Notes under the pieces: generated by a model
The model's database searches: none
Seen by the model: the letters and a program-made list of their open reading frames with translations, nothing else
Told to the model about the DNA's origin: nothing
Shown: in pieces, positions 5,430 to 40,562 of the stretch
Layout of the letters: every line of letters begins with the position of its first letter
How positions within the stretch are numbered: the first letter of the stretch is position 1
From: Microbacterium sp. TPD7012
GTDB lineage: Bacteria > Actinomycetota > Actinomycetes > Actinomycetales > Microbacteriaceae
Direction: 5' to 3'
NCBI RefSeq assembly: GCF_003075395.1
Contig: NZ_QDFV01000002.1
Location: 496,001 to 560,000, forward strand
DNA length: 64,000 bases
Program-made: the position numbers and the translations under genes

Positions 5430-5576
5430 AGTGCTGAGCCCGCCCTCTGGGTTGCTGAGACCACCCTCTGGGTTGCTGAGCCTGCCTTCTGGGTTGCTGA
5501 GCGTGCCTTCTGGGTTGCTGAGCGTGCCTTCTGGGTTGCTGAGCGTGCCTTCTGGGTTGCTGAGCCTGTCGAAGCA
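5430..5576. repeat. 21-bp tandem array, about seven copies
   Basis: Seven head-to-tail units of 21 bp, consensus GTTGCTGAGCGTGCCTTCTGG. Units start at 5430, 5451, 5472, 5493, 5514, 5535 and 5556. The 5493, 5514 and 5535 units are identical; the outer ones have drifted. The last unit changes after GTTGCTGAGCCTG into the dispersed TGAGCCTGTCGAAG element, which suggests the array grew by slippage from one arm of that element. No spacers are present, so it is not a CRISPR array. Confidence 0.9.
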
Positions 5577-5604
5577 CCAGCGACGGGGCCCTTCGACAGG
5601 CTCA
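5561..5604. repeat. Inverted pair of the dispersed 20-bp element (possible two-way terminator)
   Basis: TGAGCCTGTCGAAG at 5561-5574 is the exact reverse complement of CTTCGACAGGCTCA at 5591-5604, with a 16-nt loop. A 14-bp perfect stem between convergent genes fits a bidirectional terminator, though no T-run follows. The right arm extends to 5610 as CTTCGACAGGCTCAGGGACC. Confidence 0.75.
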
Positions 5605-5631
5605 GGGACCCAGGGCTCGGGGACCCAGGCG

Positions 5632-5651
5632 CTTCGACAGGCTCAGGGACC
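5632..5651. repeat. Dispersed 20-bp element, family 1 copy
   Basis: An exact copy of CTTCGACAGGCTCAGGGACC in the same orientation as the one at 5591-5610. Between them, GGGACCCAGG is itself repeated twice (near 5605 and 5620). Confidence 0.85.
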
Positions 5652-5684
5652 GAAGTGGCGGCAGGCTCGACGACCGGAGGAGCC

Positions 5685-5731
5685 CGGTCGTCGAGCGATC
5701 GAAGCGAGACGAAACGCCGTGAGACGAGACG
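5685..5731. repeat. Family 2 intergenic repeat copy
   Basis: The stretch CGGTCGTCGAGCGATCGAAG followed by CGAGACGAAACGCCGTGAGA resembles the two tandem copies at 40458-40543, sharing the pattern GTCGAGCGA...GCGA(C)GAGACGAAACG. Both sites lie between convergent genes. Confidence 0.7.
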
Positions 5732-5737
5732 CGCGGA

Positions 5738-7519
5738 TCAGGCCTCGTCGTCCTCGGGCTCGAAGTCGACCCCGGCCTCGGCGCGCTGCGCCGGGGTGAT
5801 CGGAGCCGGAGCCGCGGTCAGGGGGTCGAAGCCGTTGCCGGACTTCGGGAAGGCGATGACCTCGCGGATCGACTCGGTCTTCGACAGGTGCTGCAGCACG
5901 CGGTCCATGCCGAGCGCGATGCCGCCGTGCGGCGGAGCGCCGAACTTGAACGCGTCGAGGAGGAACCCGAACTGCTCGTCGGCCTGCTCGTCGCTGATCC
6001 CCATGACCTCGAACACGCGCTTCTGCACGTCTTCGCGGTGGATGCGGATCGAGCCGCCGCCGAGCTCGGAGCCGTTGCACACGATGTCGTACGCGTAGGC
6101 GAGGGCCGAGCCGGGGTCGGTGTCGAACGTGTCGGCGAACTCCGGCTTCGGGCCGGTGAACGCGTGGTGCACGGCGGTCCAGGCGCCGGCGCCGACGGCG
6201 ACGTCGCCCGAGGCCACGGCATCCGCCGCAGGTTCGAACATCGGGGCGTCGACGACCCAGGTGAACGCGAACTCGTCCGGGTTCAGGTAGCCGAGGCGGC
6301 GGCCGATCTCGACGCGCGCGGCGCCGAGGAGCGCACGGCTCTCCTTGGTGGAACCCGCGGCGAAGAAGACGCAGTCGCCCGGCTCGGCGCCGACGAAGGC
6401 CGCGAGGCCCGCCTGCTCCGCCTCGGACAGGTTCTTCGCGGCGGGGCCGCCGAGCGAGCCGTCCTCGTTGAAGAGCACATAGGCGAGACCGCGGGCACCG
6501 CGCTGCTTGGCCCAGTCCTGCCACGCGTCGAGCTGCTTGCGCGGCTGGCTCGCGCCGCCGGGCATCCGCACGGCGCCGACGTACTCGGCCTGGAAGACGC
6601 GGAACGGCGTCTCGGCGAAGTACTCGGTCGCCTCGACGAGCTCGAGTCCGAAGCGCAGGTCGGGCTTGTCGGAGCCGTACTTCGCCATCGCGTCGGCGTA
6701 GGTCAGGCGCGGCAGCGGGGTCGCGACCTCGACGCCGATCGTCTTCCACATCGCGACGACGAGCGACTCCATCAGCGCGATGACGTCTTCCTGGTCGACG
6801 AAGCTCATCTCGATGTCGAGCTGCGTGAACTCCGGCTGGCGGTCGGCACGGAAGTCCTCATCGCGGTAGCAGCGCGCGATCTGGAAGTACTTCTCGACGC
6901 CGCCGACCATCAGCAGCTGCTTGAACAGCTGCGGGGACTGCGGCAGCGCGTACCAGCTGCCGGGGCTGAGGCGCGCGGGCACGAGGAAGTCGCGGGCTCC
7001 CTCCGGCGTCGAACGCGTGAGGGTCGGGGTCTCCACCTCGGTGAAGTCCTCGGCGTGCAGCACGTCGCGGATCGCCTTGTAGACGTTCGAGCGCAGGCGC
7101 AGGTTCGACGCCTGAGCCGGACGACGAAGGTCGAGGTAGCGGTACTTGAGGCGTGCCTCCTCGCCGACGGTCTCGGTGTCGGCGACAGCCGTCGACACCT
7201 GGAACGGCAGCGGAGCGGACTCGTTGAGCACCTCGACGTCGCTCGCGATGAGCTCGATCTCGCCGGTCGGGAGGTTGGGGTTCGCGTTGCCCTCGGGGCG
7301 CTGCGAGACCTCGCCGGTCACCTTCAGCACGAACTCGTTGCGCAGCGGGTGGGCGATCTCCTCGTCGCGGATGACGACCTGGGCGATGCCCGACGCATCC
7401 CGAAGATCGATGAAGGCGACTCCTCCGTGATCACGACGGCGATCGACCCAACCCGTGAGGGTGACGGTCTGACCGATGTGCTCGGCTCGCAGAGAGCCTG
7501 CCGAGTGGGTGCGAAGCAC
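5738..7519 (-). CDS. aspS: Aspartyl-tRNA synthetase
   Basis: Charges tRNA-Asp (possibly also tRNA-Asn) with aspartate; cytoplasmic, class II. The 593 aa match bacterial AspRS, with an N-terminal OB-fold anticodon-binding domain ([19 protein letters not shown]), class II motif 2 ([18 protein letters not shown], about residues 215-232) and motif 3 at the C-terminus ([11 protein letters not shown]). The bacterial insertion domain lies between motifs 2 and 3. The start is GTG at 7519 with AAGGA about 7 nt upstream. Whether it discriminates Asp from Asn tRNAs cannot be decided by eye. Confidence 0.97.
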
Positions 7520-7629
7520 GGAGGATTCCTTCTGATCTGGGAAATGGCGAACCCGCCCAGTCTACGGGCGCGGGAACCCGGAACGATGCGGGGTCGGCCA
7601 CGACGCCACGACGCGACGAGGGCAGTCGC

Positions 7630-7635
7630 TAGACT
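7630..7635 (+). promoter_or_regulatory. Candidate -10 (TAGACT) for the DUF5684 gene
   Basis: TAGACT lies about 56 nt before the ATG at 7692. Unlike many genes here, this one also has a clear AAGGAG Shine-Dalgarno, so a leadered transcript is likely. No good -35 is visible. Confidence 0.4.
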
Positions 7636-7691
7636 CACGCCGAAGCCACGACGGTACGAGGGGCCGGCGGGCGAACAACGAAGGAGAACCC

Positions 7692-8057
7692 ATGGATTCC
7701 AACATGCTGAGCGAGCAGGTCTTCAGCACGAGCTCGGTCGTCATCTCGGTGATCTACTACCTGATCTACGCGATCACGATGTGGAAGGTCTTCTCCAAGG
7801 CCGGATACCCGGGAATCCTCGCGCTGATCCCGATCGTCAACTGGGTGTTCCTGGTCAAGATCGCCGGCATGTCGGGCTGGGCGGCGCTGCTCTACCTCAT
7901 CCCGATCGTGAACGTCATCTTCGCGATCGTCGTCGCCATCAAGGAGGGCAAGAACTTCGGCAAGGGCGGGGTCTTCTCCTTCTTCCTGCTCTGGCTGTTC
8001 CCCTTCATCGGCCACCTGATCATCGGCTTCGGCTCGGCCCAGTACAACAAGGTCTGA
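7692..8057 (+). CDS. DUF5684-type small membrane protein
   Basis: A 121-aa protein with about four hydrophobic segments. Glycine and proline motifs (FSKAGYPGILALIPIVNWV, LLYLIPIVNVIFAI) are typical of the uncharacterised DUF5684 family, often annotated as signal-peptidase-associated or simply hypothetical. An AAGGAG Shine-Dalgarno lies 8 nt before the ATG. Its stop overlaps the next gene's start by one base (TGATG), so the two are probably co-translated. No function can be assigned. Confidence 0.85.
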   Translation: MDSNMLSEQVFSTSSVVISVIYYLIYAITMWKVFSKAGYPGILALIPIVNWVFLVKIAGMSGWAALLYLIPIVNVIFAIVVAIKEGKNFGKGGVFSFFLLWLFPFIGHLIIGFGSAQYNKV

Positions 8058-8686
8058 TGTCGCGAGAGCGCCTGCATCTCGTCAGACACGGTGAGGTGCA
8101 CAATCCTCATCGTGTGCTCTACGGGCGACTCCCGGACTATCACCTGAGTGAAGCCGGCCGGCGCATGGCGAGGGCGGCGGCGGACCACGTCGCCTCCCTC
8201 GACCGCCCGATCGCCGCGCTCTACTCCTCGCCGCTGGAACGCGCGCAGGAGTCGGCCGAGCCGTTCGCCGAGCGCTTCGACCTGGTGCCGGAGATCGACG
8301 TGCGCGTGATCGAGCCGACCAACGTGTTCGAGGGAACCCAGATGCGGCGATCCCTGATGAACCCGCTCAACTGGTGGCACCTGCGTCAGCCGGCGCTGCC
8401 GAGCTGGGGCGAGCCGTACGCGTCGATCGCCGAGCGGATGCTGGGCATCATGGACGAGGCGTGGGATGCCGCCGACGGCGGCGACGTGGTCATGGTCTCG
8501 CACCAGGCGCCGATCTGGATCACCCACCTTCGGGTGGCGGGTCTTCCGCTCCGCCACGATCCGCGCACACGGCGCTGTGCGCTGTCGAGCGTCACCTCGT
8601 TCGAGAGGGTCGGGGATGTCTGGCGCGAGGTCGCCTACGCGGAGCCCGCAGCGACCGACGGCGCGGTCGACGTCGGGGCGGTCTGA
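8057..8686 (+). CDS. Histidine phosphatase family protein
   Basis: Cytoplasmic phosphatase of the phosphoglycerate-mutase-like branch, 209 aa. The catalytic RHG motif is near the N-terminus (LHLVRHGEVHNP), so His at about residue 10 would take the phosphate. YSSPLERAQESAEP carries the second conserved arginine, and VMVSHQAPI the second catalytic His. The length is typical of the family. Substrates in this family range from sugar phosphates to cobalamin intermediates, and nothing nearby narrows this. The start overlaps the previous stop (TGATG). Confidence 0.88.
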   Translation: MSRERLHLVRHGEVHNPHRVLYGRLPDYHLSEAGRRMARAAADHVASLDRPIAALYSSPLERAQESAEPFAERFDLVPEIDVRVIEPTNVFEGTQMRRSLMNPLNWWHLRQPALPSWGEPYASIAERMLGIMDEAWDAADGGDVVMVSHQAPIWITHLRVAGLPLRHDPRTRRCALSSVTSFERVGDVWREVAYAEPAATDGAVDVGAV

Positions 8687-8725
8687 CCGGCAGCCTCGTC
8701 CACCCCATGCATAGGAACCCGCACG

Positions 8726-8731
8726 TAAACT
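8726..8731 (+). promoter_or_regulatory. -10-like TAAACT, leaderless start
   Basis: TAAACT is 7 nt before the GTG at 8739, the spacing expected if transcription starts at the start codon. Confidence 0.5.
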
Positions 8732-8738
8732 GGGAATC

Positions 8739-9404
8739 GTGCCACAGACCAGCTGGGTCCCTGAGCCTGTCGAAGGGCCGATCCGCAGCGGCCGCCCCTC
8801 CCGCACCCGCCTCCCGCGGCGTGCGCTCGGAGTCGCGCTCGCCGCGCTCTTCGCCGTCGGCTTGAGCGCGTGCGCCCCGGATCCGGTGAGCGAGTCGTTC
8901 CTGAGCGGTGACAACACCGGCTACGTTGCGGCCGACGGCGCGATCGTCGAGATCCCCGAGGGCGAGCGCGGTGAGCCGGTGGACTTCGGCGGAGTCACCG
9001 AGACCGGGGAGAAGCTCGACAGCGCCGACCTCGCCGGGCAGGTCACGGTCGTCAACTTCTGGTACGCCGGGTGCGCACCGTGCCGTGTGGAGGCCGCCGC
9101 TCTGGAGAGCGTCTGGCAGGAGTACGAGGGAGACGGCGTCTCGTTCGTCGGCATCAACACCCGCGACCAGGCCGACACGGCGGTCGCGTTCGCCGAGGAG
9201 TACGGCATCACGTACCCGAGCCTGATCGACGTCGACACGGCCGAGGCCAAGCTCGCCTTCGCCGAGGTCACCCCGATCGCGGCCACCCCGACGACGCTGG
9301 TCCTCGACAAGCAGGGCCGTGTCGCCGCTCGCATCATCGGGCCGATCGACGGCACCTCGATCCTCTCCACGCTCGTGGGGGACGCGCTCGCGGAGTCCTC
9401 GTGA
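8739..9404 (+). CDS. Thioredoxin-like (TlpA/ResA type) lipoprotein for cytochrome c maturation
   Basis: Probably reduces apocytochrome c or other envelope disulfides, handing on electrons delivered by the CcdA encoded next. The 221 aa include a cytoplasmic head with a family 1 repeat peptide (WVPEPVEGP, residues 6-14), a hydrophobic signal ending in lipobox LSAC, and a thioredoxin fold with active site WYAGCAPCR and cis-proline region ATPTTLVLD. GTG at 8739 is supported by TAAACT 7 nt upstream. Starting later would remove the repeat-derived head, but no good alternative start precedes the signal peptide. It heads the ccdA-resB-ccsB operon. Confidence 0.9.
   Translation: MPQTSWVPEPVEGPIRSGRPSRTRLPRRALGVALAALFAVGLSACAPDPVSESFLSGDNTGYVAADGAIVEIPEGERGEPVDFGGVTETGEKLDSADLAGQVTVVNFWYAGCAPCRVEAAALESVWQEYEGDGVSFVGINTRDQADTAVAFAEEYGITYPSLIDVDTAEAKLAFAEVTPIAATPTTLVLDKQGRVAARIIGPIDGTSILSTLVGDALAESS
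8756..8777. repeat. Dispersed element, family 1 copy inside a coding region
   Basis: GGTCCCTGAGCCTGTCGAAG, plus GG, is the reverse complement of the core element. It is read here in frame as V-P-E-P-V-E-G in the cytoplasmic head of the lipoprotein precursor, upstream of the signal peptide. Confidence 0.88.
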
Positions 9405-9420
9405 CCGCCACGGGAGCGCT

Positions 9421-10227
9421 GTGAACACCGAGACGATCATCGGATCCGGCGCCCTCTGGCTCGCGATCCCTGTCGCCATGCTGGCCGGGCTCGTGTCGTT
9501 CCTGTCCCCGTGCGTGCTGCCGCTCGTGCCCGGGTACCTCGGATTCCTCGGGGGTGCGGTCGCGCCTCGGTCGGTTTCGTCGGATGGCGCCCTTCGACAG
9601 GCTCAGGGACCCAGTGGTGCGACCGACGCGACGGCCACGGCCACGGCCACGCGGGGGCGGCTCGTGCTCGGGGTGCTGCTGTTCATCCTCGGGTTCAGCA
9701 TCGTCTTCATCCTCTACACGGTGCTCGGCGGCACGGCGGGCGTCTTCCTGCTGCGGTGGGGCGATCTGATCACCCGCATCCTCGGTGTGGTCATCATCGC
9801 GATGGGCCTGGTGTTCCTCGGGCTGTTCGGATTCGCGCAGCGCGAGTTCCGGTTCCACGTCGACTCGAAGTACGGCGTCGTCGGAGCCCCGCTCCTCGGC
9901 ATCGCGCTCGGCATCGGCTGGGCGCCCTGCATGGGGCCGACGCTGGCCGCGATCGTCGCGCTGTCGTTCAACGCCGGTGACCCCGTGCGCGCGGGCTTCC
10001 TCGGACTCGCCTACTCGCTCGGCCTCGGCATCCCGTTCCTGCTGGTCGCTCTCGGATTCGGCTGGGCCACCAAGGCGATCGGCTTCCTGCGCCGCCACAT
10101 CCGCGTCGTGAACATCATCGGGGGCGTGCTGCTCGTCGTCCTCGGCATCCTGATGGTGACCGGACTTTGGACCGACATCATGTCCCGGCTGACGGCGGTG
10201 ATCGGCAGTGTCATCCTCCCGCTCTGA
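9421..10227 (+). CDS. ccdA: Cytochrome c biogenesis protein CcdA
   Basis: Membrane electron carrier that passes reducing power from cytoplasmic thioredoxin to extracytoplasmic thiol proteins such as the lipoprotein encoded upstream. The 268 aa hold about six membrane helices. The two redox cysteines are visible: C31 in FLSPCVLPLVPGY and C170 in GWAPCMGPT. GTG at 9421 is the natural start just after the previous stop. The loop after helix 1 is enlarged by a family 1 repeat peptide (residues 57-64, ALRQAQGP) and an ACGGCC microrepeat coding Ala-Thr pairs. That loop is probably tolerant of inserts. Confidence 0.93.
   Translation: MNTETIIGSGALWLAIPVAMLAGLVSFLSPCVLPLVPGYLGFLGGAVAPRSVSSDGALRQAQGPSGATDATATATATRGRLVLGVLLFILGFSIVFILYTVLGGTAGVFLLRWGDLITRILGVVIIAMGLVFLGLFGFAQREFRFHVDSKYGVVGAPLLGIALGIGWAPCMGPTLAAIVALSFNAGDPVRAGFLGLAYSLGLGIPFLLVALGFGWATKAIGFLRRHIRVVNIIGGVLLVVLGILMVTGLWTDIMSRLTAVIGSVILPL
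9592..9611. repeat. Dispersed element, family 1 copy inside ccdA
   Basis: An exact CTTCGACAGGCTCAGGGACC, read as L-R-Q-A-Q-G-P. This is a different frame and orientation from the copy in the upstream lipoprotein gene. It sits in the loop between the first two helices of CcdA. Confidence 0.9.
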
Positions 10228-10255
10228 GACCGACGCCACGAAGAACAAGGATGCT

Positions 10256-11989
10256 GTGAACAGCGACATCAGCGACCCCCTGCGTCCGTCCGACCATGTC
10301 GACGGCGACGACTCGATCTCGCAGCCGCGCCTCGGCCTCGTCGGCTGGCTCCGGTGGGGGTGGCGACAGCTCACCTCGATGCGCACCGCGCTCATCCTGC
10401 TGCTCGTGCTCGCGATCGCCGCGATCCCCGGCTCGATCTTCCCGCAGCGGATGGCCGACCCGAACGGCGTCACGCAGTGGCAGCGCGACAACCCCGACCT
10501 CTTCCCGGTGCTCGACGCCCTGAAGCTGTTCGACGTCTACCTGTCGCCGTGGTTCTCGGCCATCTACCTGCTGCTGTTCGCCTCGCTGGTCGGCTGCGTC
10601 ATCCCGCGCATCAAGCACCACGCGAAGGCGCTGCGCGCGCGTCCGCCGCGCACACCCGCCCGTCTGCAGCGTCTCGAGGACTACCGGTCGGTGGTGCGGG
10701 ATGCGACGGATGCCGAGGCCGCATCCGCGTCGATCGATGTCGCGACGAAGCAGCTGAAGGCGCTCGGCTACCGCGTCGAGCGCTACGACCGCGGCCGCAC
10801 CTTCTCGGTGTCGGCCGAACGCGGATACTGGCGCGAGACGGGCAACCTGCTCTTCCACCTGGCGCTCGTCGGCGTGCTCGTCACGGTCGGCATCGGCGGA
10901 GGCTTCTCGTACACCGGCCAGCGCGTGCTGGTCGAGGGCGAGACCTTCGCGAACACGCTGGTCGACTACGACTCGATGAACCGCGGGCGCTTCGTCGGCG
11001 ACGACGCGCTGGCGCCCTACTCGATGCGCCTCGACTCGTTCGATGTGTCGTACCAGCCGTTCGGCGAGCCCGGATCCGGGCAGGCCGGGGACTTCTCCGC
11101 GAACATGACCGTGCAGGAGAAGGGCGAGGAGCGCACCGGCGCGGTCAAGGTCAACGAGCCCCTCGCGGTCGCCGACGACGACGTCTTCCTGCTCGGCAAC
11201 GGGTACGCTCCGACCGTCACGGTGCGCGACCCCGACGGCGACGTCGTCTTCACCAACAGCACGCCGTTCCTCCCGCAGGACAACAACATGACGTCGCTCG
11301 GCGTCCTCAAGATCCCCGACGGACTCGCCGAGCAGGTCGGCCTGGTCGGCTTCTTCTACCCGACCACCGGCATCCTCGAGAGCGGCGCGTTCTTCTCGGC
11401 CTACGGCGACCTCACCAACCCGACGCTCACCCTCGACGTCTACACCGGCGACCTGGGCATCAACGACGGCGTCCCCCGCTCGGTCTACGTGCTCGACACC
11501 ACCGGCATGACGAAGCTGACCGGACGCACCACCGACGTCGAGTCGATCGAGCTCACGCCGGGGGAGACCGCCCAGCTGCCGAACGGCCTCGGCAGCGTGA
11601 CGTTCGACGACGAGTCCCCCGCGGGGGCGACCGACGCCTCGGAGTCCGTCAAGCGGTTCGCGTCGCTGCAGATCCACCGCGACGACTCCGGCCCCTGGGT
11701 GCTCGGCTTCGCGCTGCTCGCCCTCGCGGGCCTCATGATCGCGCTGTTCGTCCCCCGACGCCGCGTCTGGGTCAAGGCGACCGCCGACGGTGGCGCCGTG
11801 ACCATCGAGTACGCCGCGCTCGCCCGCGGTGAGGACCCGACCCTCGCCGCTGCCGTCGACGACCTCGTCGCCGGGCACGCGCGTCTGCTCGATGCAGCGG
11901 GTGGCACCACCGCCCGCGAACCCCAGGCCGACGCCGATCCGTCCACGGCGCAGCAGGCCCCGGCATCCGATTCCCCGAAAGTAGACTGA
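10256..11989 (+). CDS. resB: Cytochrome c biogenesis protein ResB
   Basis: One half of the system II heme delivery/ligation complex, working with CcsB encoded next to attach heme to apocytochrome c outside the membrane. About 577 aa, with an N-terminal pair of helices (MRTALILLLVLAIAAIPGSI), a further helix (SAIYLLLFASLVGCVIP), a large extracytoplasmic domain and a final helix (LGFALLALAGLMIALFVPRR), the usual ResB layout. I chose GTG at 10256, preceded by AAGGA. A GTG at 10208 in the same frame would overlap ccdA by 20 bp. The Ala/Gln-rich tail is probably disordered. Confidence 0.92.
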   Translation: MNSDISDPLRPSDHVDGDDSISQPRLGLVGWLRWGWRQLTSMRTALILLLVLAIAAIPGSIFPQRMADPNGVTQWQRDNPDLFPVLDALKLFDVYLSPWFSAIYLLLFASLVGCVIPRIKHHAKALRARPPRTPARLQRLEDYRSVVRDATDAEAASASIDVATKQLKALGYRVERYDRGRTFSVSAERGYWRETGNLLFHLALVGVLVTVGIGGGFSYTGQRVLVEGETFANTLVDYDSMNRGRFVGDDALAPYSMRLDSFDVSYQPFGEPGSGQAGDFSANMTVQEKGEERTGAVKVNEPLAVADDDVFLLGNGYAPTVTVRDPDGDVVFTNSTPFLPQDNNMTSLGVLKIPDGLAEQVGLVGFFYPTTGILESGAFFSAYGDLTNPTLTLDVYTGDLGINDGVPRSVYVLDTTGMTKLTGRTTDVESIELTPGETAQLPNGLGSVTFDDESPAGATDASESVKRFASLQIHRDDSGPWVLGFALLALAGLMIALFVPRRRVWVKATADGGAVTIEYAALARGEDPTLAAAVDDLVAGHARLLDAAGGTTAREPQADADPSTAQQAPASDSPKVD

Positions 11990-11993
11990 CACC

Positions 11994-12968: not shown

Positions 12969-13069
12969 GTCCGGCTCGCTCTCGGAGAACGGAGAGCGGA
13001 TGCCGTCGCCTCGGCGTGTCGGGCGGGGACGCGCCGAGTCCGTCGTGCACGGTCTGGGTTTCCCGGGCT

Positions 13070-13660: not shown

Positions 13661-13666
13661 GACGCG

Positions 13667-13672
13667 AGCGTA
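13667..13672 (-). promoter_or_regulatory. -10-like TACGCT, leaderless start
   Basis: On the minus strand TACGCT lies 6 nt before the ATG of the 2H phosphoesterase gene. Confidence 0.5.
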
Positions 13673-13695
13673 CGCCGAACACGTGCGATCCCGGG

Positions 13696-13775
13696 CACGG
13701 CTTCGGAGCTGCGGCCCGACTCGCCGTGTTCGAGGGGCGATTCTCGGCGAGTCGAGGCCGATCTCCGAAGTCGTG
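13696..13775. terminator. Long imperfect palindrome after the YhgE gene
   Basis: Nested arms form a structure of about 80 bp: CTTCGGAG (13701-13708) pairs with CTCCGAAG (13763-13770), and CGACTCGCCG (13717-13726) pairs exactly with CGGCGAGTCG (13745-13754). Outer CACG/CGTG and middle GGCC/GGCC also match. It follows the minus-strand YhgE gene, so it may end that transcript. There is no T-run. Confidence 0.6.
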
Positions 13776-13820
13776 CGGTGGGGGTGCCGTGTTGCGGCGA
13801 GGGGAGCCCGAGCGCCGGGG

Positions 13821-15791: not shown

Positions 15792-18559
15792 GCGGTCACC
15801 TCGGTGGATTCTGCGGCGATTCGGCGCGGAGCGCGCGTGTCGAGTGTGTCGGCGTCGGGCCAGCCGGCCTCGGCGAGAGTCGTGCGGGCCGATGCGGCAT
15901 CGGCAGCGGTGGCGAAGACGGCGAGGGGCCGTGAGGCCGCGGCATCCCGGAGCATCGCTGCCGCCTGGTCGCGCTGGCCGCCCGTGAGCCGGTCGAGGCC
16001 GTCGATCACGACGACCGCGGAGGTGCCCCGCAGGGCTTCGGCGAGATCGTCGAGCGCGGCATCCGCATCGTCGACGAGCACGCACCCGACGTGCGAGCGC
16101 ACCCAGGCCGCGCGGCCGGGGAGCAGGTGGCCGCCGACCCGGAGACGCCCGTCGCTCGGGGCGATGCGGCCGGCGATCGTGAGCGCCAGAGCGCGGCGGG
16201 TGCGCGCGTCGCTTCCGGTCGCGACCACGGCGCCGCCCTCGAGGATGCGCACCGTCAGGCCTTCGATGACCGGCGCGTCCGCGCTGATCACCAGGTCGTC
16301 CGCTGCCACGACGGAGCCGTCGCCGGGCCACTCGGACAGGTGGCGCTCCCGTTCGACGGCCTCGCCCTCGATGTCGACGCGGGGGAGGATCTTCTCCAGC
16401 CAGGTCGGGATCTCCCAGGCGCGCTCGCCGAGGATGGCCATCAGCGCGGGGATCAGGGTCATGCGCACGAGGAAGGCATCGATCGCGATGCCGGCCGCGA
16501 GGCCGAGGGCGATGGGCTTGAGTGACGAGTCGCCCTCGGGGACGAATGCGACGAACACCGCGAACATGATGAGGCCTGCGGCCGTGACGACCTTCGCCGA
16601 GCCGGTGAATCCGCTGCGCACGGCGCGGAGGGCGGCGGCACGACGGGTCGCGCGATCGGAGCTTTTCGAGGCGGGATCGTGCACGAAGTCCTCGCGCATG
16701 CGGGAGACGAGGAACACCTGGTAGTCCATGGCCAGGCCGAACAGCACGCCCATCAGGATGATCGGCATGAAGCTGATGATGGGGCCGACCTTGGCGACAT
16801 GGAGGAGATCGGCGAACCAGCCCCATTCGAAGACCGCGCCGACGACGCCGAATGCGGCGACGATCGAGAGCAGGTAGCCGAGGGCGGCGGTGATCGGCAC
16901 CCAGAGCGAGCGGAACACGATCGTGAGCAGGATCAGCGAGAGCCCGATCACGAAGATGCCGAACGGCAGGAGGGCGTTGCCGAGCTGATCGGAGATGTCG
17001 ATGCCGACGGCCGTGAAGCCGGTGACCTTGAGGTCGATCCCGAATTCGTCGAGCCACTCGTCGTGGTGAGACCGGAGTTCGCGCACGAGGTCGGCCGTCG
17101 CAGGATCATCGGGTGCCGTCTCCGGGATGATCTGCACGATGCCGGTGTCGGCGGTCTCATTGGGGGTCGCGAGGGCGACTTCCTTGACGCCGGGGATGTC
17201 GGCGACGGCGTCCCCGAGATCCTCCATGAGCGTGAGCGGATCGGTCGAGGTGACGATGGTTCCGGTGAGGATCAGGGGACCGTTGAAACCGGGCCCGAAC
17301 TCCTCGCCGACGAGATCGTAGCTCTGGCGCGCCTCGGAGTCCTTCGGCAGCACGCCGGCGTTGGGGAGGGCCAGGTTCAGGCTGAGCGCGGGCACTGCCA
17401 CGATGCCGAGCCCGATCACCACGGCGAGCGAGACCAGGACGGGATGCTTGGTGACGCCGCCGACCCAGCGGTCGCTGAACCCGCGACGCGGAGCGGCGAC
17501 CTTCTGTCCCTTCTTGGGCTTGGGCGCGCGACGCGGGCGGCCGACGACCTTGCCCTTCATGAAGCCGAGCAGTGCCGGAGTGAGCGTGACCGCGATCGCG
17601 ACCGCGATGGCCACCGCGACGGATGCCGCGATGCCCATGGTCGTGAGGAACGGGATGCCCGCGAATCCGAGACCGATCAGGGCGATGAGCACCGTGACGC
17701 CGGCGAAAACGACAGCGGATCCGGCCGTGCCGACGGCTCTGGCCGTGGATTCCTCGGGATCGACGCCGTCGCGCACCTGGTCCTGATGCCGGGCCATGAT
17801 GAACAGCGCGTAGTCGATGCCGACCGCGAGGCCGAGCATGAGTGCCAGAAGCGGGGTGGTGGAGGAGACGGTGGCGAACGCGGTGGCCGCGAAGATGCCG
17901 GCCATCGAGATGCCGACGCCGAGGACCGCCGTGAGGAGGGGGAGCCCGGCGACGACGAAGGAGCGGAACGTCACGATCAGCACGAGCAGCGCGATCAGCA
18001 GCCCGACCGCCTCGGTGAGCGTCAGGCCGGGGATCGATGTGGCGAAGAGGTCGCCGCCGAGCGCTGTCTGCGCGCCGTCGGGGAGCGCTTCGCCGAGCTC
18101 ATCGGACACCGCCCGCAGGGAGTCCTTCGTCTCGTCCGAGACGTCGGTGGATTCGCCGTCGAACTGCAGCCGCACGATCGCGGCGGTCTCGTCGTCGTTG
18201 ATCATGCCGCTGACCATCTCGTCGTAGGGCGAGTTGGCCGCGAGCACGCCGTCGAGGTCTTCCATCTCGCCGATGGACTGCTCGATCTCGTCGCGATAGT
18301 CGTCGTCGGTGACCTTGTCGCCGTCGGCGGCGACCACGATGATCTGCGCGCTGGTGCCGCTCACCTGGGGGAACGAGCGCGACAGTTGCTCGAGACCGGC
18401 CTGCGATTCGGTGCCGGGGATCGAGAACGAGTTGTCCGTTCCGGCACCGAGGACCAGGGCGCCCGCCCCGGCGATGCCGAGCGCGAGGAGCCAGGAGACG
18501 AGGACACGCCACGGATGCCGGTAGGACCAGCGACCGAGCGAGGACAGGAGAGTGGACAC
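15788..18559 (-). CDS. MMPL/RND family transporter with a degenerate ABC-ATPase-like C-terminal domain
   Basis: A 923-aa exporter. It has two repeats of one helix, an extracellular domain and about five helices, typical of MMPL lipid or drug exporters (GIDYALFIMARHQDQVRDG and AMDYQVFLVSRMREDFVHD carry the expected Asp-Tyr pairs for proton coupling). After about residue 735 comes an extra domain of about 190 aa resembling an ABC ATPase start to end, but with GSDARTRR (about 782-789) where the Walker A lysine motif should be. A Walker-B-like VVVIDGLDRL remains at about 848. The GTG at 18559 follows GGAGGA. It starts the MMPL-YhgE operon, divergent from TetR. Confidence 0.9.
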   Translation of the reverse strand: MSTLLSSLGRWSYRHPWRVLVSWLLALGIAGAGALVLGAGTDNSFSIPGTESQAGLEQLSRSFPQVSGTSAQIIVVAADGDKVTDDDYRDEIEQSIGEMEDLDGVLAANSPYDEMVSGMINDDETAAIVRLQFDGESTDVSDETKDSLRAVSDELGEALPDGAQTALGGDLFATSIPGLTLTEAVGLLIALLVLIVTFRSFVVAGLPLLTAVLGVGISMAGIFAATAFATVSSTTPLLALMLGLAVGIDYALFIMARHQDQVRDGVDPEESTARAVGTAGSAVVFAGVTVLIALIGLGFAGIPFLTTMGIAASVAVAIAVAIAVTLTPALLGFMKGKVVGRPRRAPKPKKGQKVAAPRRGFSDRWVGGVTKHPVLVSLAVVIGLGIVAVPALSLNLALPNAGVLPKDSEARQSYDLVGEEFGPGFNGPLILTGTIVTSTDPLTLMEDLGDAVADIPGVKEVALATPNETADTGIVQIIPETAPDDPATADLVRELRSHHDEWLDEFGIDLKVTGFTAVGIDISDQLGNALLPFGIFVIGLSLILLTIVFRSLWVPITAALGYLLSIVAAFGVVGAVFEWGWFADLLHVAKVGPIISFMPIILMGVLFGLAMDYQVFLVSRMREDFVHDPASKSSDRATRRAAALRAVRSGFTGSAKVVTAAGLIMFAVFVAFVPEGDSSLKPIALGLAAGIAIDAFLVRMTLIPALMAILGERAWEIPTWLEKILPRVDIEGEAVERERHLSEWPGDGSVVAADDLVISADAPVIEGLTVRILEGGAVVATGSDARTRRALALTIAGRIAPSDGRLRVGGHLLPGRAAWVRSHVGCVLVDDADAALDDLAEALRGTSAVVVIDGLDRLTGGQRDQAAAMLRDAAASRPLAVFATAADAASARTTLAEAGWPDADTLDTRAPRRIAAESTEVTA

Positions 18560-18585
18560 GCGTTCCTCCGAGAGATGCCGATTGG

Positions 18586-18616
18586 ATACACAGGTGTACT
18601 CAATACATAGATGTAT
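18586..18616. promoter_or_regulatory. Twin palindromic operators, likely TetR sites
   Basis: Two matching inverted repeats lie between the divergent MMPL and TetR genes: ATACAC-AG-GTGTAC (18586-18599) and ATACAT-AG-ATGTAT (18603-18616, perfect arms). Their centres are 17 bp apart. The spacing, symmetry and position fit paired binding of the TetR dimer that would block both promoters. On the minus strand TTTACG followed 17 nt later by GTACAC could be the covered promoter. Confidence 0.82.
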
Positions 18617-18690
18617 CGTAAAGTGACCCGCCCGCTGGAGTCTGTGTGCGGGGTGTGAATCATGCGAGAGTGAAGGGTCAGGAGGTTTCG

Positions 18691-19314
18691 ATGACGACAC
18701 CCGCAACCCGCAGTCGGGAGAACACGCGTGCCCGACTCCTCGAGGCGGCGGCACAGGTCTTCGCCGAGGTCGGCCTCGACGGCGCCTCCGTCGAGGCCGT
18801 CTGCGAGCGCGCCGGTTTCACTCGCGGCGCTTTCTACTCCAACTTCGAGTCGAAGGACGAGCTGTTCCTCATGCTCACGGCCAGTGTGGCCGAGGTGCGC
18901 GTGAACGCGGTCCGCACCCGGGTCGAGGAGATGACGGCAGAGGGCGCGCTCGCCGAAGGCTGCGACCCCATCGACCTGGTGCAGCAGGTCATGGAGCTCG
19001 GGGGCGATGATCGCCTCGGGGTGATGCTGATGAGCGAGATCCGCATCCGTGCCCTGCGCGACGAGCAGTTCGGCATCGCCTACCTGGCGCAGGAGCGCGA
19101 GATGGTCGCGAGCATCGCGCAGATCGTCGAGGACATCGTCGCGGCGGGGCGGCTGAAGCTGCGACTGCCGGCCGACGTCGCGGCCCGCATGCTCATGATC
19201 GTCTGGGAGGGCATGACCGTCCGCGGTGCGATGGCCGGCCAGGACGACGAGAAGCTCCGCCACTCCGGGAGCGAAGAGCTCGGCCGGCTGGTGCAGCTGC
19301 TCATCGAGGGCTGA
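18691..19314 (+). CDS. TetR/AcrR family transcriptional regulator
   Basis: A 207-aa one-component repressor. The N-terminal DNA-binding domain shows the classic pattern: LLEAAAQVFAEVGLDGASVE, then CERAGFTRGAFYSNFESKDE. The C-terminal two thirds would bind the inducing ligand. The ATG at 18691 follows AGGAGG by 7 nt, a clear start. Because it diverges from the MMPL-YhgE operon with two palindromes between, it most likely represses that operon and itself, with a lipid or drug as the signal. The ligand is inference only. Confidence 0.92.
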   Translation: MTTPATRSRENTRARLLEAAAQVFAEVGLDGASVEAVCERAGFTRGAFYSNFESKDELFLMLTASVAEVRVNAVRTRVEEMTAEGALAEGCDPIDLVQQVMELGGDDRLGVMLMSEIRIRALRDEQFGIAYLAQEREMVASIAQIVEDIVAAGRLKLRLPADVAARMLMIVWEGMTVRGAMAGQDDEKLRHSGSEELGRLVQLLIEG

Positions 19315-19320
19315 GCCGGC

Positions 19321-20298
19321 TCAGGCCTCGGCGAGCACTCCGTGGCAGCGCTCGAGTCGGGCCAGCCACCAGTCGCGGCGCTCGGCCGAGGCGGCCAGGC
19401 GCGTGAGCGCTGCGGCATCCGGCGTCACCCGGCCGACGGGGATCGCGCCATCGACAGGGCGCAGGTCGGCGACATCATCGAGGAAGAGCGACGAGGTGCC
19501 GAGTCCGCAGTCGTAGTCCAGGTTCGGGAGAGCAGCCGCGAGGGCGGCGCCCTGTGACAGGCCGATCGCGGTGTCGAGTGCGCTCGACACGACGACGGGG
19601 AGACCGGCGGCCGTCACGATCTGCAGTGCGTGCGTCACTCCGCCCAGCGGTTGCGCCTTGATCACCAGGATGTCTGCGGCGCGGGCGCGGGCGACGGCGA
19701 GCGGATCGGACGACTTTCGCACGCTCTCGTCAGCGGCGACCGGGATGCCCATGTACTTCACCCGCTTGCGCAGGTCGGCGAGCTCCGGCACGGTCGCGCA
19801 CGGCTGCTCGACGTACTCGAGGTCGAATTCGTTCAGGGCGTGCACCGCGTGCTCGGCCTCGTCGACGTTCCACATCCCGTTCGCGTCCACGCGGATGCGA
19901 CCCTCCGGGCCCATCGCCTCCCGCACTGCGCGCACCCGGGCGACGTCGTCCGCGAGCGTCTGGCCGGGCTCGGCGACCTTCACCTTCGCCGTCCGGCATC
20001 CGGCGAAGCGCGCCAGGACCTCGGCGACGCGCTCCGCCGGGATCGCGGGGATCGTCGCGTTCACGCGTACTCGATCGCGCAGCGGCGCGGGCTGGGGATG
20101 CCAGCCGAAATCGATGGCGGCGGCGAGCCAGCTCGCGGCCTCCGCATCGTCGTACTCCACGAAGGGGGAGAACTCGGCCCACCCCTCCCGCCCCTCGAAC
20201 AGGAGCGCCTCCCGCGTGTCGACGCCGCGGAAGCGGGTGTGCATCGGGAGCGAGGCGACGCGGGCGGAAGCGAGGAGGTCTGCGAGCGGGGGGAGCAT
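19321..20298 (-). CDS. menC: o-Succinylbenzoate synthase
   Basis: Dehydrates SHCHC to o-succinylbenzoate in menaquinone synthesis; enolase superfamily, cytoplasmic. The 325 aa contain the catalytic Lys pair motif (TAKVKVAEP), the metal ligands in VDANGMWNVDE, EQPCATVPEL and AADES, and the second lysine in LVIKAQPLGG. Length and motif order match actinobacterial MenC. I chose ATG at 20298 with CACAAT 6 nt upstream; longer extensions lack support. menB and menE lie about 1.5 kb to the right on the other strand, so the pathway is grouped but not in a single operon. Confidence 0.92.
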   Translation of the reverse strand: MLPPLADLLASARVASLPMHTRFRGVDTREALLFEGREGWAEFSPFVEYDDAEAASWLAAAIDFGWHPQPAPLRDRVRVNATIPAIPAERVAEVLARFAGCRTAKVKVAEPGQTLADDVARVRAVREAMGPEGRIRVDANGMWNVDEAEHAVHALNEFDLEYVEQPCATVPELADLRKRVKYMGIPVAADESVRKSSDPLAVARARAADILVIKAQPLGGVTHALQIVTAAGLPVVVSSALDTAIGLSQGAALAAALPNLDYDCGLGTSSLFLDDVADLRPVDGAIPVGRVTPDAAALTRLAASAERRDWWLARLERCHGVLAEA

Positions 20299-20388
20299 GA
20301 CCCCATTGTGCCCCCATGCTTCTCGTTCCCGTGGCAGCTGTGGCGGGTCGTGGATGGAGACACCCGCCAGAACTGTCACGGGAGCCCT

Positions 20389-20400
20389 CACATAAATGTG
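20389..20400. promoter_or_regulatory. Palindrome CACAT-AA-ATGTG, candidate PadR operator
   Basis: A perfect 5-bp-arm inverted repeat just upstream of the PadR promoter. It contains the ACAT/ATGT half-sites typical of PadR operators, so self-repression is likely but unproven. Confidence 0.6.
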
Positions 20401-20403
20401 TGA

Positions 20404-20433
20404 TTGACAATGGTGTGTGACGCACAGTAACGT
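20404..20433 (+). promoter_or_regulatory. Promoter TTGACA-18-TAACGT, leaderless, for padR
   Basis: A consensus -35 (20404-20409) and a TANNNT -10 (20428-20433) are separated by 18 bp. The -10 is 7 nt before the ATG at 20441, so the transcript probably begins at the start codon. This is the best complete promoter of the leaderless class in the window. Confidence 0.78.
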
Positions 20434-20440
20434 GTGATTC

Positions 20441-20773
20441 ATGAACGAGACGCTCGACACACATCTGCAGGAGCTCAGGCGCGGCACCATCGTGCTCGCC
20501 TGCCTGCAGCTGCTGCGCACGGCGGGGTACGGCTACGGACTGCTCGAGGACCTCGAGCGCCGCGGCTTCGCCACCGACGCGAACACGCTGTACCCGCTGC
20601 TTCGCCGACTGGAGAAGCAGGAGTACCTGACGAGCGAGTGGAACACCGACGAGGCCAGGCCCCGCAAGTTCTACCGCACCTCGGAGACCGGCGTCCGGCT
20701 GGCCGACACCCTCACCGACGAATGGCGATCTCTCACGACGGCGATCGCATCCCTCACCTCAGAGGAGAACTGA
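20441..20773 (+). CDS. PadR family transcriptional regulator
   Basis: A 110-aa winged-helix regulator of the short PadR-s2 type. Recognisable stretches are GTIVLACLQLLRTAGYGYGL, NTLYPLLRRLEKQEYL and the wing RPRKFYRTSETG. Short PadR proteins usually pair with an adjacent membrane protein, and here the next gene follows after one base. Promoter and operator candidates directly precede the ATG. It probably controls this two-gene operon. Confidence 0.93.
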   Translation: MNETLDTHLQELRRGTIVLACLQLLRTAGYGYGLLEDLERRGFATDANTLYPLLRRLEKQEYLTSEWNTDEARPRKFYRTSETGVRLADTLTDEWRSLTTAIASLTSEEN

Positions 20774-20774
20774 C

Positions 20775-21767
20775 ATGCCTACCAAGACCACCCTCACCGA
20801 GCGGTACATCACCGCCACCATCCGCAGCCTGCCCGCGACGGCGCAGGCCGATGTGCGGGCCGAGCTCGAGGCATCGATCGCCGACGCCGTCGAGGCCCGC
20901 GTCGAGCAGGGCGAGCCGCGCGAGGCCGCCGAGCACTCCGTGCTCACGGAGCTCGGCGACCCGGGCGTCCTCGCCGCCGGCTACGCCGATCGCCCGCTGC
21001 ACCTGATCGGCCCGCGCTACTTCCTCGTCTGGTGGCGACTGCTGAAGCTGCTCCTCTGGATCGTTCCCGCCTGTGCGGCATTCGGCGTCACGATCGCCAA
21101 GATCCTGGAATTCGCGACGATCGGCGAGACCATCGGCGCGGTCGTCGTCGTGATCATCCAGGTGATCGTGAACGTGGGCTTCTGGACCACGCTCGTCTTC
21201 GCGATCCTGGAGCGGACGGTGCCGGTGCCGGAGACCGAGTGGAGCGTCGACCAGCTGCCGGAGATCTACGAGACCCGTGCCGGCTTCTCCGAGATGATCG
21301 GCTCGATCATCTTCCTCGTGCTAGCGGGTGCCGCGATCCTGTGGGATGCGCTGCGAGGCTTCGTCCGCACGGACGGCGAGGCGCTGCCCATCCTGAACCC
21401 GGAGCTGTGGCCGTGGTGGATGACGGCGCTGCTCGTCCTGATGGCGGCGGAGCTGCTGCTCGCGATCGCCGTCTACCGCGCCGGACGCTGGAACGCCGGC
21501 TTCGCCGTGGTGAACACCGTACTGGCCATCGCCTTCGCCGTTCCCGCGCTGTACCTGCTCGCCTCGGGTCAGCTGGTCAACCCGGAGTTCCTCGACTACC
21601 TCGCGACGAACCACGCAGACGACCTCGCGAATGCGAACGCCGGTGCCGCCGAGCAGGGCGGGGTGCTGCGTGTGGTCAGCGTCGTCCTCGGCGTCGTCAC
21701 GGCAGGGATCGTCGTGTGGGACATCATCGACGGCTGGCTGAAGGCCTCGCGCGCGCGCCGGAGCTGA
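20775..21767 (+). CDS. HAAS-type (permease prefix) domain membrane protein
   Basis: A 330-aa protein. The first 75 residues form an amphipathic helical domain (YITATIRSLPATAQADVRAE, then LTELGDPGVLAAGYADRP) of the type found beside PadR regulators and called HAAS or DUF1700-like. About six to seven membrane segments follow. Domains of this kind are thought to couple PadR to a membrane protein. No catalytic motif is visible. It is co-transcribed with padR (1-bp gap) and ends at the strong terminator at 21783. Confidence 0.8.
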   Translation: MPTKTTLTERYITATIRSLPATAQADVRAELEASIADAVEARVEQGEPREAAEHSVLTELGDPGVLAAGYADRPLHLIGPRYFLVWWRLLKLLLWIVPACAAFGVTIAKILEFATIGETIGAVVVVIIQVIVNVGFWTTLVFAILERTVPVPETEWSVDQLPEIYETRAGFSEMIGSIIFLVLAGAAILWDALRGFVRTDGEALPILNPELWPWWMTALLVLMAAELLLAIAVYRAGRWNAGFAVVNTVLAIAFAVPALYLLASGQLVNPEFLDYLATNHADDLANANAGAAEQGGVLRVVSVVLGVVTAGIVVWDIIDGWLKASRARRS

Positions 21768-21782
21768 ACTCCCGGCAGACGG

Positions 21783-21808
21783 AACGCCGCCCTCTTCGGG
21801 GCGGCGTT
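21783..21808 (+). terminator. Intrinsic-type hairpin after the PadR operon
   Basis: AACGCCGCCC pairs perfectly with GGGCGGCGTT around the 6-nt loop TCTTCG, then TCGTCG follows. A 10-bp GC-rich stem just after the operon fits a terminator. Confidence 0.85.
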
Positions 21809-21833
21809 TCGTCGTTCTCGGGGAGGGCGGGAA

Positions 21834-21839
21834 TAGGCT
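21834..21839 (+). promoter_or_regulatory. -10-like TAGGCT, leaderless start of menB
   Basis: TAGGCT lies 7 nt before the GTG of menB and just after the preceding terminator. Confidence 0.58.
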
Positions 21840-21846
21840 GGATCCC

Positions 21847-22791
21847 GTGACCACCGCATTCGTCTCCGATCTGTTCGACCCCGCCGAATGGGTGCTCGCG
21901 CCCGGAGCCGAGGACTACACGGACATCACCGCCCACGTGACGCACGACGGGGGCGTCGCCCGCATCGCGTTCGACCGGCCGGAGGTGCGCAACGCCTTCC
22001 GCCCCCACACGGTCGACGAGCTGTACCGCGCTCTCGACATCGCGCGTCAGGACCCTCGCATCGGCGCGGTGCTGCTGACCGGCAACGGCCCGAGCCCGAA
22101 GGACGGCGGGTGGGCGTTCTGCTCCGGCGGCGACCAGCGCATCCGCGGACGCGACGGGTACAAGTACTCCGACGCTTCGACAGGCTCAGGGGCCCAAGGG
22201 GCGACGGGCTCAGAGGCCGAGGGTTCCTCCGCTCGCGTGGGACGTCTCCACATCCTCGAGGTGCAGCGTCTCATCCGCTTCATGCCGAAGGTCGTCATCG
22301 CCGTCGTCCCGGGATGGGCAGCCGGCGGCGGGCACTCGCTGCACGTGGTGTGCGACCTGACGATCGCCTCGGCGGAAGAGGCGCGTTTCAAGCAGACGGA
22401 TGCCGACGTCGGCAGCTTCGACGCCGGATACGGCTCCGCCTACATGGCCCGCCAGACCGGGCAGAAGTTCGCGCGGGAGGTGTTCTTCCTGGCGGAGGAG
22501 TACTCCGCGCAGCGCGCCTACGAGGCCGGCGCGGTGAACCGCGTCGTGCCGCATGCCGAGCTCGAGGTCGAGGCGCTGAAGATGGCACGGACCGTGCTGA
22601 CCAAGTCGCCCACGGCGATCCGGATGCTGAAGTTCGCGTTCAACGCGGTCGACGACGGGCTCGTCGGACAGCAGGTGTTCGCCGGTGAGGCGACCCGCCT
22701 GGCCTACGGCACCGACGAGGCCGTCGAGGGACGCGACTCGTTCCTCGAGAAGCGCGACCCCGACTGGTCGTCGTTCCCCTGGCACTACTGA
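21847..22791 (+). CDS. menB: 1,4-Dihydroxy-2-naphthoyl-CoA synthase
   Basis: Closes the naphthoquinone ring from o-succinylbenzoyl-CoA; crotonase superfamily, cytoplasmic. The 314 aa carry SGGDQRIRG, the oxyanion-hole region GWAAGGGHSLHVVCDLTIAS, QTDADVGSFDAGYGSAY and the C-terminal DWSSFPWHY, all typical of MenB. Residues 110-125 (ASTGSGAQGATGSEAE) are encoded by a tandem family 1 repeat and sit in the loop after GRDGYKY, which as I recall is disordered in the M. tuberculosis enzyme. Start is GTG with TAGGCT 7 nt upstream. menE follows after 16 bp. Confidence 0.96.
   Translation: MTTAFVSDLFDPAEWVLAPGAEDYTDITAHVTHDGGVARIAFDRPEVRNAFRPHTVDELYRALDIARQDPRIGAVLLTGNGPSPKDGGWAFCSGGDQRIRGRDGYKYSDASTGSGAQGATGSEAEGSSARVGRLHILEVQRLIRFMPKVVIAVVPGWAAGGGHSLHVVCDLTIASAEEARFKQTDADVGSFDAGYGSAYMARQTGQKFAREVFFLAEEYSAQRAYEAGAVNRVVPHAELEVEALKMARTVLTKSPTAIRMLKFAFNAVDDGLVGQQVFAGEATRLAYGTDEAVEGRDSFLEKRDPDWSSFPWHY
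22175..22218. repeat. Dispersed element, family 1 tandem copy inside menB
   Basis: CTTCGACAGGCTCAGGGGCCC (one mismatch to the core) is followed by a decayed second copy, CGACGGGCTCAGAGGCC. Read as S-T-G-S-G-A and T-G-S-E-A, this is the third frame used by the element in this window. Confidence 0.85.
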
Positions 22792-40543: not shown

Positions 40544-40562
40544 TCCCACCCGCGACGGCGGG

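Follow-up and report, generated by a model that had tools for sequence, protein, structure and literature searches.

A dispersed hairpin in Microbacterium likely copied by a cognate GIY-YIG endonuclease whose gene its copies bracket

Palindromic repeats are common in bacteria, and for some of them, such as the CGTC-tagged repetitive extragenic palindromes (REPs), no enzyme is known (PMC3733652). Closest to the system reported here are REPs and their hairpin-forming doublets (REPINs) partnered by REP-associated tyrosine transposases (RAYTs); they share with our case short dispersed palindromes with compensating stems, inverted doublets and arrays, a partner gene between two inverted copies and more copies where the partner is present (PMC2817692, PMC3116915, PMC8049555). 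CGTC-tagged REPs are likewise high-copy palindromes without a known dedicated transposase, some of them within genes, with stems of 8-9 bp, loops of mostly 4-5 nt and a CCA-like tail, and the background of the same paper places Rickettsia palindromic elements (RPEs), which resemble our repeat by description, in frame inside protein genes (PMC3733652). Here we describe a hairpin dispersed through the genome of Microbacterium sp. TPD7012, first noticed as a repeated 20-mer in a 64-kb stretch of contig NZ_QDFV01000002.1 (positions 496,001 to 560,000; hereafter the window). We infer that it is likely cut and copied by a cognate single-domain GIY-YIG endonuclease whose gene its copies bracket. The genome studied is called G000, other G numbers are relatives or other genomes, and family 1 is the hairpin of the 20-mer.

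Small GIY-YIG nucleases were chosen as the candidate partner by guess and then tested. In a first pass over 40 congeners (20 with high and 20 with low copy counts), one GIY-YIG type was found to sit among hairpin copies. This type, clade A, is carried by 16 of 119 congeners (at least 108 bits with the G000 protein as query, the next best match scoring 86), and all 16 genes are flanked on both sides by family-1 copies within 600 bp (at most one mismatch in the core), the nearest lying 23-127 bp away and the core being exact on both sides in 13 of the 16. By comparison, at 14 other small GIY-YIG loci the same 600-bp flanks contain no family-1 copy in 13 cases and a single near-match, at 582 bp, in the remaining one. 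Copy number follows the same division. The exact 13-mer core, TTCGACARGCTCA, occurs 0 to 565 times in the 119 congeners, patchily, with 17 genomes lacking it and 19 holding at least 50; the median is 109 (12-565) in the 16 clade-A genomes versus 2 in the other 103 (Mann-Whitney p=9e-10), and at least 50 copies are present in 14 of 16 versus 5 of 103 (Fisher p=2e-12). Other small GIY-YIG genes alone make no difference (median 3 in 37 genomes that have them versus 2 in 66 without any; p=0.38).

The association extends beyond the genus. A contig scan for GGTNNCTTCGACARGCTCAGNNACC returned at least 118 stretches from many phyla, those listed including Bacteroidales, Flavobacteriia, Chloroflexota, Treponema, Brevinematales, Goldiibacteriota, a Lachnospiraceae metagenome-assembled genome (MAG), a Deltaproteobacteria MAG and several Actinomycetota. 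Of these 118 stretches, chosen by the hairpin pattern only, 7 hold a GIY-YIG frame, two in Actinomycetota and five in Bacteroidota, and all 7 frames, among them the broken gene of G523, lie within 21-141 bp of a copy; these genes recur in our other sets, L113 (Microbacterium) in the clade-A search and the rest in the whole-genome searches. Further bracketed genes came from whole-genome searches of Viridilinea (Chloroflexota), G324 and the Deltaproteobacteria MAG, and in two Bacteroidota genomes an additional paralog is flanked by another loop, TTCGACTGCGCTCA in Ulvibacterium and TTCG[TG]CAAGCTCA in G520. Across 26 of these genomes the core count spanned 1-453 (Viridilinea 453, Planctomonas 445, Roseiflexus 228, one Treponema 199, Enemella 158), with controls of 0 or 1, and among 394 genomes of the class few large sets were found outside the genus (G324 139, G383 126, G446 73, G246 39, G120 34). 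At least 227 viral stretches contain the core; none of the 227 retrieved holds a GIY-YIG frame, a count that supports no claim of depletion, and tblastn matches of the nuclease in phages and plasmids (21 and 17 records) were all below 60% identity.

Family 1 forms a hairpin whose 11-nt loop, TCGACARGCTC, is constant and whose stem bases vary in compensating pairs, both within single genomes and in Bacteroidota. Matched flank types are GCC..GGACC, GACG..CGACC and GGTG..CAACC in G000, and GGTGGC..GCCACC and GGTCCC..GGGACC in G063. In 47 thinned G000 copies, pairing reaches 89% at stem position 2 and 94% at position 3, compared with 57% and 79% for shuffled partners, and 0 of 500 shuffles reached the observed values. 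The same held, again with 0 of 500 shuffles as high, in G063 (n=29), other Microbacterium (n=42) and Bacteroidota (n=20), where position 1 varies as well; in other Actinomycetota (n=28), 0 to 3 of 500 shuffles matched the observed pairing, and the signal was weaker or uninformative in the small sets (G005 12, G029 8, Chloroflexota 11, Spirochaetota 5, other phyla 3). Duplicates and near-duplicates were removed from these sets, as were anchors selected by pattern except in four whole-genome groups. Pairing involves positions 1-3 plus a T-A pair and partly positions 4-6, G000 stems being mismatched at position 4. The case for a hairpin rests on covariation and not on energy, because single G000 copies fold, as DNA, no better than shuffles (z -0.96 and +1.19); among eight sequences folded, a copy of a second hairpin family alone stood out (z -3.15). 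Copies also form inverted pairs and tandem arrays of 33-nt and 21-nt units.

These hairpins differ from GTAG REPs in several respects. Their ends are GCC, GACG or GGTG, and no GTAG (or GTGG) was seen in copies lined up by eye; their conserved part is the loop or internal loop and not an end tag; a GIY-YIG nuclease stands in place of the Y1 transposase; and they occur in Actinomycetota, Bacteroidota, Chloroflexota and others. With stems of about 4-7 bp that enclose either an 11-nt loop or an additional hairpin, they also fall outside the definition of CGTC-tagged REPs. A literature search found no paper on the family-1 and sister core 13- to 15-mers, and the papers listed for 10-12-mers of other hairpin families look unrelated by title or abstract start. 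Among the titles and abstract starts listed, with subscription papers and preprints mostly outside the search, none described a GIY-YIG nuclease paired with palindromic repeats, those on UPF0213/COG2827/YhbQ included.

Other nuclease clades are bracketed by other repeats, and all aligned ones fit the form stem-GAGN-inner part-WCGA-stem'. Family 1 and its sister have YTG or GNAG as the inner part, where the remaining families have a second hairpin. We scored 97 distinct GIY-YIG loci (duplicates, near-duplicates and loci with less than 250 bp of flank removed) with a family hidden Markov model (HMM), which replaced a first-guess protein signature for bracketed genes that had separated them poorly (p=0.13). 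At HMM scores of at least 100, the motif occurs within 600 bp in 75 of 76 loci and on both sides in 62; at scores of 70-100, it occurs in 3 of 5 loci and on both sides in 2. Ten permuted motifs averaged 0 loci with matches on both sides and 3.8 with a match on any side. A Trp after an E..[x][QKHR] stretch, noted post hoc, is present in 86 of the 97 loci, 65 of which are bracketed on both sides, versus 0 of the 11 without it. With the narrower GAGY motif, the flanks of 22 type-B Microbacterium loci (two duplicate loci omitted) contain 119 matches, versus 0.7 (maximum 3) for permuted motifs, in 22 of 22 loci and on both sides in 19; 26 other loci of the class contain 122, versus 1.0 (maximum 4), in 19 loci and on both sides in 17. 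Controls gave 0 matches in 16 UvrC loci (taken, not by result, from a set of 23) and 1 in 20 ccdA loci. The relaxed motif (GAGN, any base before CGA) is found at 26 of 26 class loci. Individual genes illustrate the pairing: one from Lachnospiraceae is flanked by ATCCC-GAGC..TCGA-GGGAT and, on the opposite side, by ATTCC-GAGC..TCGA-GGAAT (one side only under a stricter flank), and one from Chloroflexi has GGTT-GAGT..ATCGA-AACC on both sides.

Mapped onto a nuclease tree, hairpin type requires 15 changes, versus a shuffled mean of 40.0 with 0 of 200 shuffles as low (74 labelled rows); the tree comprises 78 nucleases over 91 columns and has many weak forks, rows with a family score under 85, duplicates and near-duplicates having been removed. 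Because hairpin type follows the nuclease tree, recognition of each hairpin by its nuclease is supported. In a motif-free test, at least three inverted 11-mers shared between the flanks were found at 23 of 24 type-B, 24 of 26 class and 10 of 16 clade-A loci, versus 4 of 23 UvrC/long-frame and 2 of 20 ccdA control loci. Some type-B loci reach this score through parS-like palindromes only, and direct 11-mer repeats are frequent in the ccdA controls too (7 of 20). Separately, several small Microbacterium GIY-YIG genes (L249, L252, L257, L259 and L260, the last being the gene of L208) adjoin parS-like GTTTCACGTGAAAC palindromes. When GAG..CGA hairpins with stems of 5 bp were counted across the entire window, the result (2, with permuted motifs reaching up to 3) was uninformative because of the position-4 mismatch in G000 stems, and the four found in 60 kb of G002 (versus 0.2) are taken as chance because they are unlike one another and unlike the hairpin families.

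The G000 nuclease has 96 residues and a single Pfam domain (PF01541, 55.7 bits; gathering score 22.6). All 33 aligned members have Y5, Y15, G17, R26, H30 and E65, which include the catalytic tyrosines, arginine and glutamate known for GIY-YIG enzymes. The AlphaFold model of the G000 nuclease (pLDDT 93) matches UPF0213 proteins first and Slx1, a structure-specific nuclease, next. UPF0213 and small GIY-YIG proteins (1zg2, 1ywl), with the same PF01541 domain, are its best solved relatives by sequence and fold; unlike the bracketed subgroup, distant members are mostly not tied to hairpins. NCBIfam left three nucleases unmatched, PADLOC gave a single weak, unconvincing match (E 0.0024), and the sources name such small proteins 'GIY-YIG nuclease family protein', 'putative endonuclease' or similar. 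A catalytic domain and a selfish-looking gene recall GIY-YIG homing endonucleases; unlike them, the 96-residue product has no second Pfam domain and no intron host was seen, typical homing enzymes carrying additional DNA-binding modules (PMC1564403).

Gene and hairpins behave as a unit. In G000, the gene and its arrays span around 1.2 kb (G000:C8) and adjoin a gene that we take to be lepA. At this one site, the unit is present in G000 and, at the same place, in G029, and absent from G002, which has less than 20 bp there; judged by shared flanks, G117 and G005 have it at this site too. Around lepA, G002 is nearer G029 than G000 (88.5% versus 82.7% identity), yet it has 1 exact core versus 109. 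The copies nearest the gene are inverted (-,+) in 20 of 28 units and have the opposite layout in 3 of 28 (binomial p=3e-7 if units are independent). In several genomes the nuclease frame continues through the adjoining hairpins. At L214:1765-1935 and L270:850-1430, such read-through yields tails of DASTSSATQ or TERSRSQ repeats. A further difference concerns the second hairpin family, which is represented in the window as follows.

5689..5716, + strand: degenerate family-2 hairpin, CGTC-GAGC...ACGA-AACG
40459..40493, + strand: family-2 hairpin, CGTC-GAGC...ACGA-GACG
40508..40542, + strand: family-2 hairpin, CGTT-GAGC...ACGA-AACG (DNA fold -12.6 kcal/mol for window positions 40500-40546)
40542..40558, no strand: site of a whole family-2 unit in relative G005, geneless in G000

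At the last of these positions G005 has a unit of about 590 bp consisting of hairpins, a GIY-YIG gene and a six-hairpin array, and G000 has two family-2 hairpins and no gene.

In the window itself, six copies of the 20-mer were found at up to 3 mismatches (shuffle mean 0.01; 0 of 100 shuffles reach six), three in an intergenic cluster and three inside genes.

5432..5557, + strand: 21-bp tandem array (GGGTTGCTGAGC...), six units of TGCTGAGCGTGCCTTCTGGGT (repeat family D1)
5555..5574, - strand: hairpin copy of TG/CA stem type (GGTG-CTTCGACAGGCTCAG-CAACC), 2 mismatches, by line-up of flank types
5591..5610, + strand: hairpin copy of CC/GG stem type, exact 20-mer (flank types; DNA fold)
5632..5651, + strand: hairpin copy, third of the intergenic cluster, exact 20-mer
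8739..9404, + strand: thioredoxin-like gene with a hairpin copy close to the N-terminus (Pfam AhpC-TSA/Redoxin; relatives aligned)
8756..8775, - strand: hairpin copy within the thioredoxin-like gene, read VPEPVEG (gap in 7 of 9 aligned relatives)
9421..10227, + strand: ccdA-like gene with a hairpin copy in a variable loop (DsbD_TM 24.9 bits, under the cut-off of 27.1)
9592..9611, + strand: hairpin copy within the ccdA-like gene, read LRQAQGP (missing from 8 of 9 aligned relatives)
21847..22791, + strand: menB-like gene with a hairpin copy in a variable loop (Pfam ECH_1)
22175..22194, + strand: hairpin copy within the menB-like gene, read STGSGA, 1 mismatch (gene-length comparison)

The 21-bp array looks like an amplified half of the hairpin. 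At gathering scores, Rfam matched nothing in the window but a tRNA. The six hairpin copies lie where the original prediction had placed them, the inverted one occupying 5555-5574, and checks by eye agreed with it that the three genes read the element in three different frames and that a stop occurs in only one of the 20-mer's six frames. The repeat is also abundant genome-wide: the 4.08-Mb G000 genome (17 contigs) holds 204 copies at up to 3 mismatches, versus 2 for a reversed control. The covarying stems, the copies across many phyla and the nuclease partner had been overlooked in the original prediction. Its description of the host genes as essential-type was a gloss, and the names ccdA and menB were its own; the Pfam matches are those listed.

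Comparison with relatives showed filled and empty sites. At the thioredoxin-like site, 7 of 9 relatives have a gap, with a net difference of 15 nt in the four measured (G029, G014, G001 and G021), and G005 and G022 have altered copies; at the ccdA site, the copy is shared with G005 only. By match lengths, the menB gene of G000 is longer by 33 nt than those of G001 and G034, by 24 nt than those of G002 and G029 and by 18 nt than that of G005; no menB match lay within the stretch fetched for G021 and G014. Three further sites differ between G000 and G005, by 36, 33 and 21 nt, and the length differences at insertion sites are multiples of three. G022 carries family-2-like sequence (GAGCGCAGCGAGACGAAACG in menB) in the menB and ccdA loops (L360, L047) where G000 carries family 1. 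A rough codon-composition test of 43 sampled copies placed 8 deep within reading frames and found coding signal on one side for 14 and none for 21; by this test, landing inside genes accounts for a minority of copies. The earlier idea of a mobile palindromic element that tolerates genes is partly supported: the patchy copy number, the filled and empty sites and the bracketed nuclease gene fit it, and only a minority of copies lies within genes. Its comparison with RPEs, which share the in-frame presence within proteins, is no more than a resemblance; we know of no partner enzyme for RPEs. As a separate observation, G005 has no exact 15-mer copy in around 680 kb (C1:426058-1105819), its genome having 112 (100 listed), perhaps reflecting avoidance of one chromosome region.

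Several observations weigh against copying by a bracketed nuclease. Some congeners have many copies and no clade-A gene (G070 162, G064 110, G058 103, G049 55 and G006 53), two of them, G070 and G049, being single-contig assemblies, and the copy-number correlation and the layout test ignore kinship. Among the scanned GIY-YIG loci, with some weak matches left unfetched, no family-1-bracketed gene was found in the high-copy G383, G446 and G120 or the single-contig G246, nor in Enemella, Roseiflexus and one Bacteroidales genome; the same was true of Lachnospiraceae, Goldiibacteriota, Kaistella, Gelidibacter, Aeromicrobium and Anaerolineales, several of which are fragmented MAGs. At the Treponema loci scanned, the only copies were a pair beside UvrC and one copy around 400 bp from a partial match. 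Conversely, exact cores are few in four genomes with a bracketed gene (Ulvibacterium 4, G521 1, G522 3 and G523 6), so copy number need not be high, and the gene in G523 is broken by two stops. The clade-A gene is single-copy in the genomes searched and four species share its location, so it hardly moves by itself. Target-site duplications, which the original prediction had proposed to look for, were not convincing at any filled or empty site, among relatives that have diverged, whose flanks are often changed or replaced and in which few empty sites are perfectly clean. Distant small GIY-YIG genes are mostly unbracketed, the motif occurring in 3 of 16 loci with an HMM score below 70 and on both sides in 1, and UvrC is a soft control because its flanks, taken from the domain, lie partly within a long gene. 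Finally, the GAG..CGA motif is not exclusive to GIY-YIG hairpins, since a RAYT-linked GTAG REP of Coxiella contains CT-GAGC-TTG-CGA-AG (Table 1 of PMC2817692); the GAG/CGA core may be a structural solution shared by both systems.

Some of these points would suit a different history, in which something else spreads or maintains the hairpins and the GIY-YIG gene, selfish and of homing type, takes hairpin arrays as its insertion target. This is the main rival, a weaker one that we consider unlikely. It would accommodate the high-copy genomes without the gene, the frequent position of genes within hairpin arrays and the window segment 40459-40542, where two family-2 hairpins stand without a gene at the place of the G005 unit; however, copy number within the genus follows the gene, 20 of 28 units have their nearest copies inverted in the manner of element ends, whereas insertion into a direct array would leave them direct, and G002, without the unit and with only one exact core, offers no pad in waiting. 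Hairpins maintained by the host, for instance at mRNA ends or in chromosome organization, and trimmed or resolved by the nuclease as a repair enzyme, are an improbable alternative: 21 of 43 sampled copies lie in no coding frame and structure selectivity would fit the resemblance of the model to Slx1, but congeners ranging from 0 to 565 copies give no sign of needing a set, copies lie inside protein genes in any orientation, and a repair enzyme need not sit between its own substrates in nearly every close family member.

The tandem arrays of 33-nt and 21-nt units could come from replication slippage and gene conversion without any dedicated enzyme, but such local amplification does not account for solitary copies at unrelated sites, for the link with the nuclease gene or for the way hairpin type follows the nuclease tree, and as a full account it is very improbable. 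Least credible of all are ordinary REPs moved by a RAYT (Y1 tyrosine) transposase: short palindromes, inverted pairs, arrays and high copy number give a similar look, but Y1_Tnp (PF01797) was found in 1 of 119 congeners, a genome with 2 copies, which refutes it as the driver in this genus, and no GTAG end was seen by eye.

We therefore favour copying by the cognate nuclease as probable. In such a process, the nuclease would recognize the folded or extruded hairpin through the GAG/CGA internal loop and the inner loop and would nick it where it is extruded, for example on the lagging strand; host repair or replication might then join the released hairpin at a new place, by analogy with RAYTs. 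At the ends of a unit, the same act would move the gene; gene and end hairpins can be gained or lost together. A copy inside a gene would persist where it lengthens a permissive loop by a multiple of three bases.

We also incline, if only slightly, to a broader view, in which a new superfamily of minimal, mobile GAG/CGA hairpin elements is driven by single-domain GIY-YIG nucleases, each nuclease clade recognizing its own inner loop, and seeds short in-frame peptides into host proteins. Such a superfamily would span Actinomycetota, Bacteroidota, Chloroflexota, a Deltaproteobacteria MAG, Bacillota and Brevinematales, around six phylum-level lineages in all, with the hairpin on just one side of the gene in Brevinematales. 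With a nuclease family linked to its own hairpins in position, copy number and co-evolution, repeat spread becomes directly testable with one small protein, one oligonucleotide and one motif. The link would assign a function to small GIY-YIG proteins so far named only generically, and would show how host proteins acquire short in-frame inserts such as those in the menB and ccdA loops of G022. If nucleases copy hairpins, they are potential small tools for structure-directed DNA cutting. If true, the system would be a second, transposase-free counterpart of what RAYTs are for REPs, and may supply the missing enzyme of other orphan palindromic repeats.

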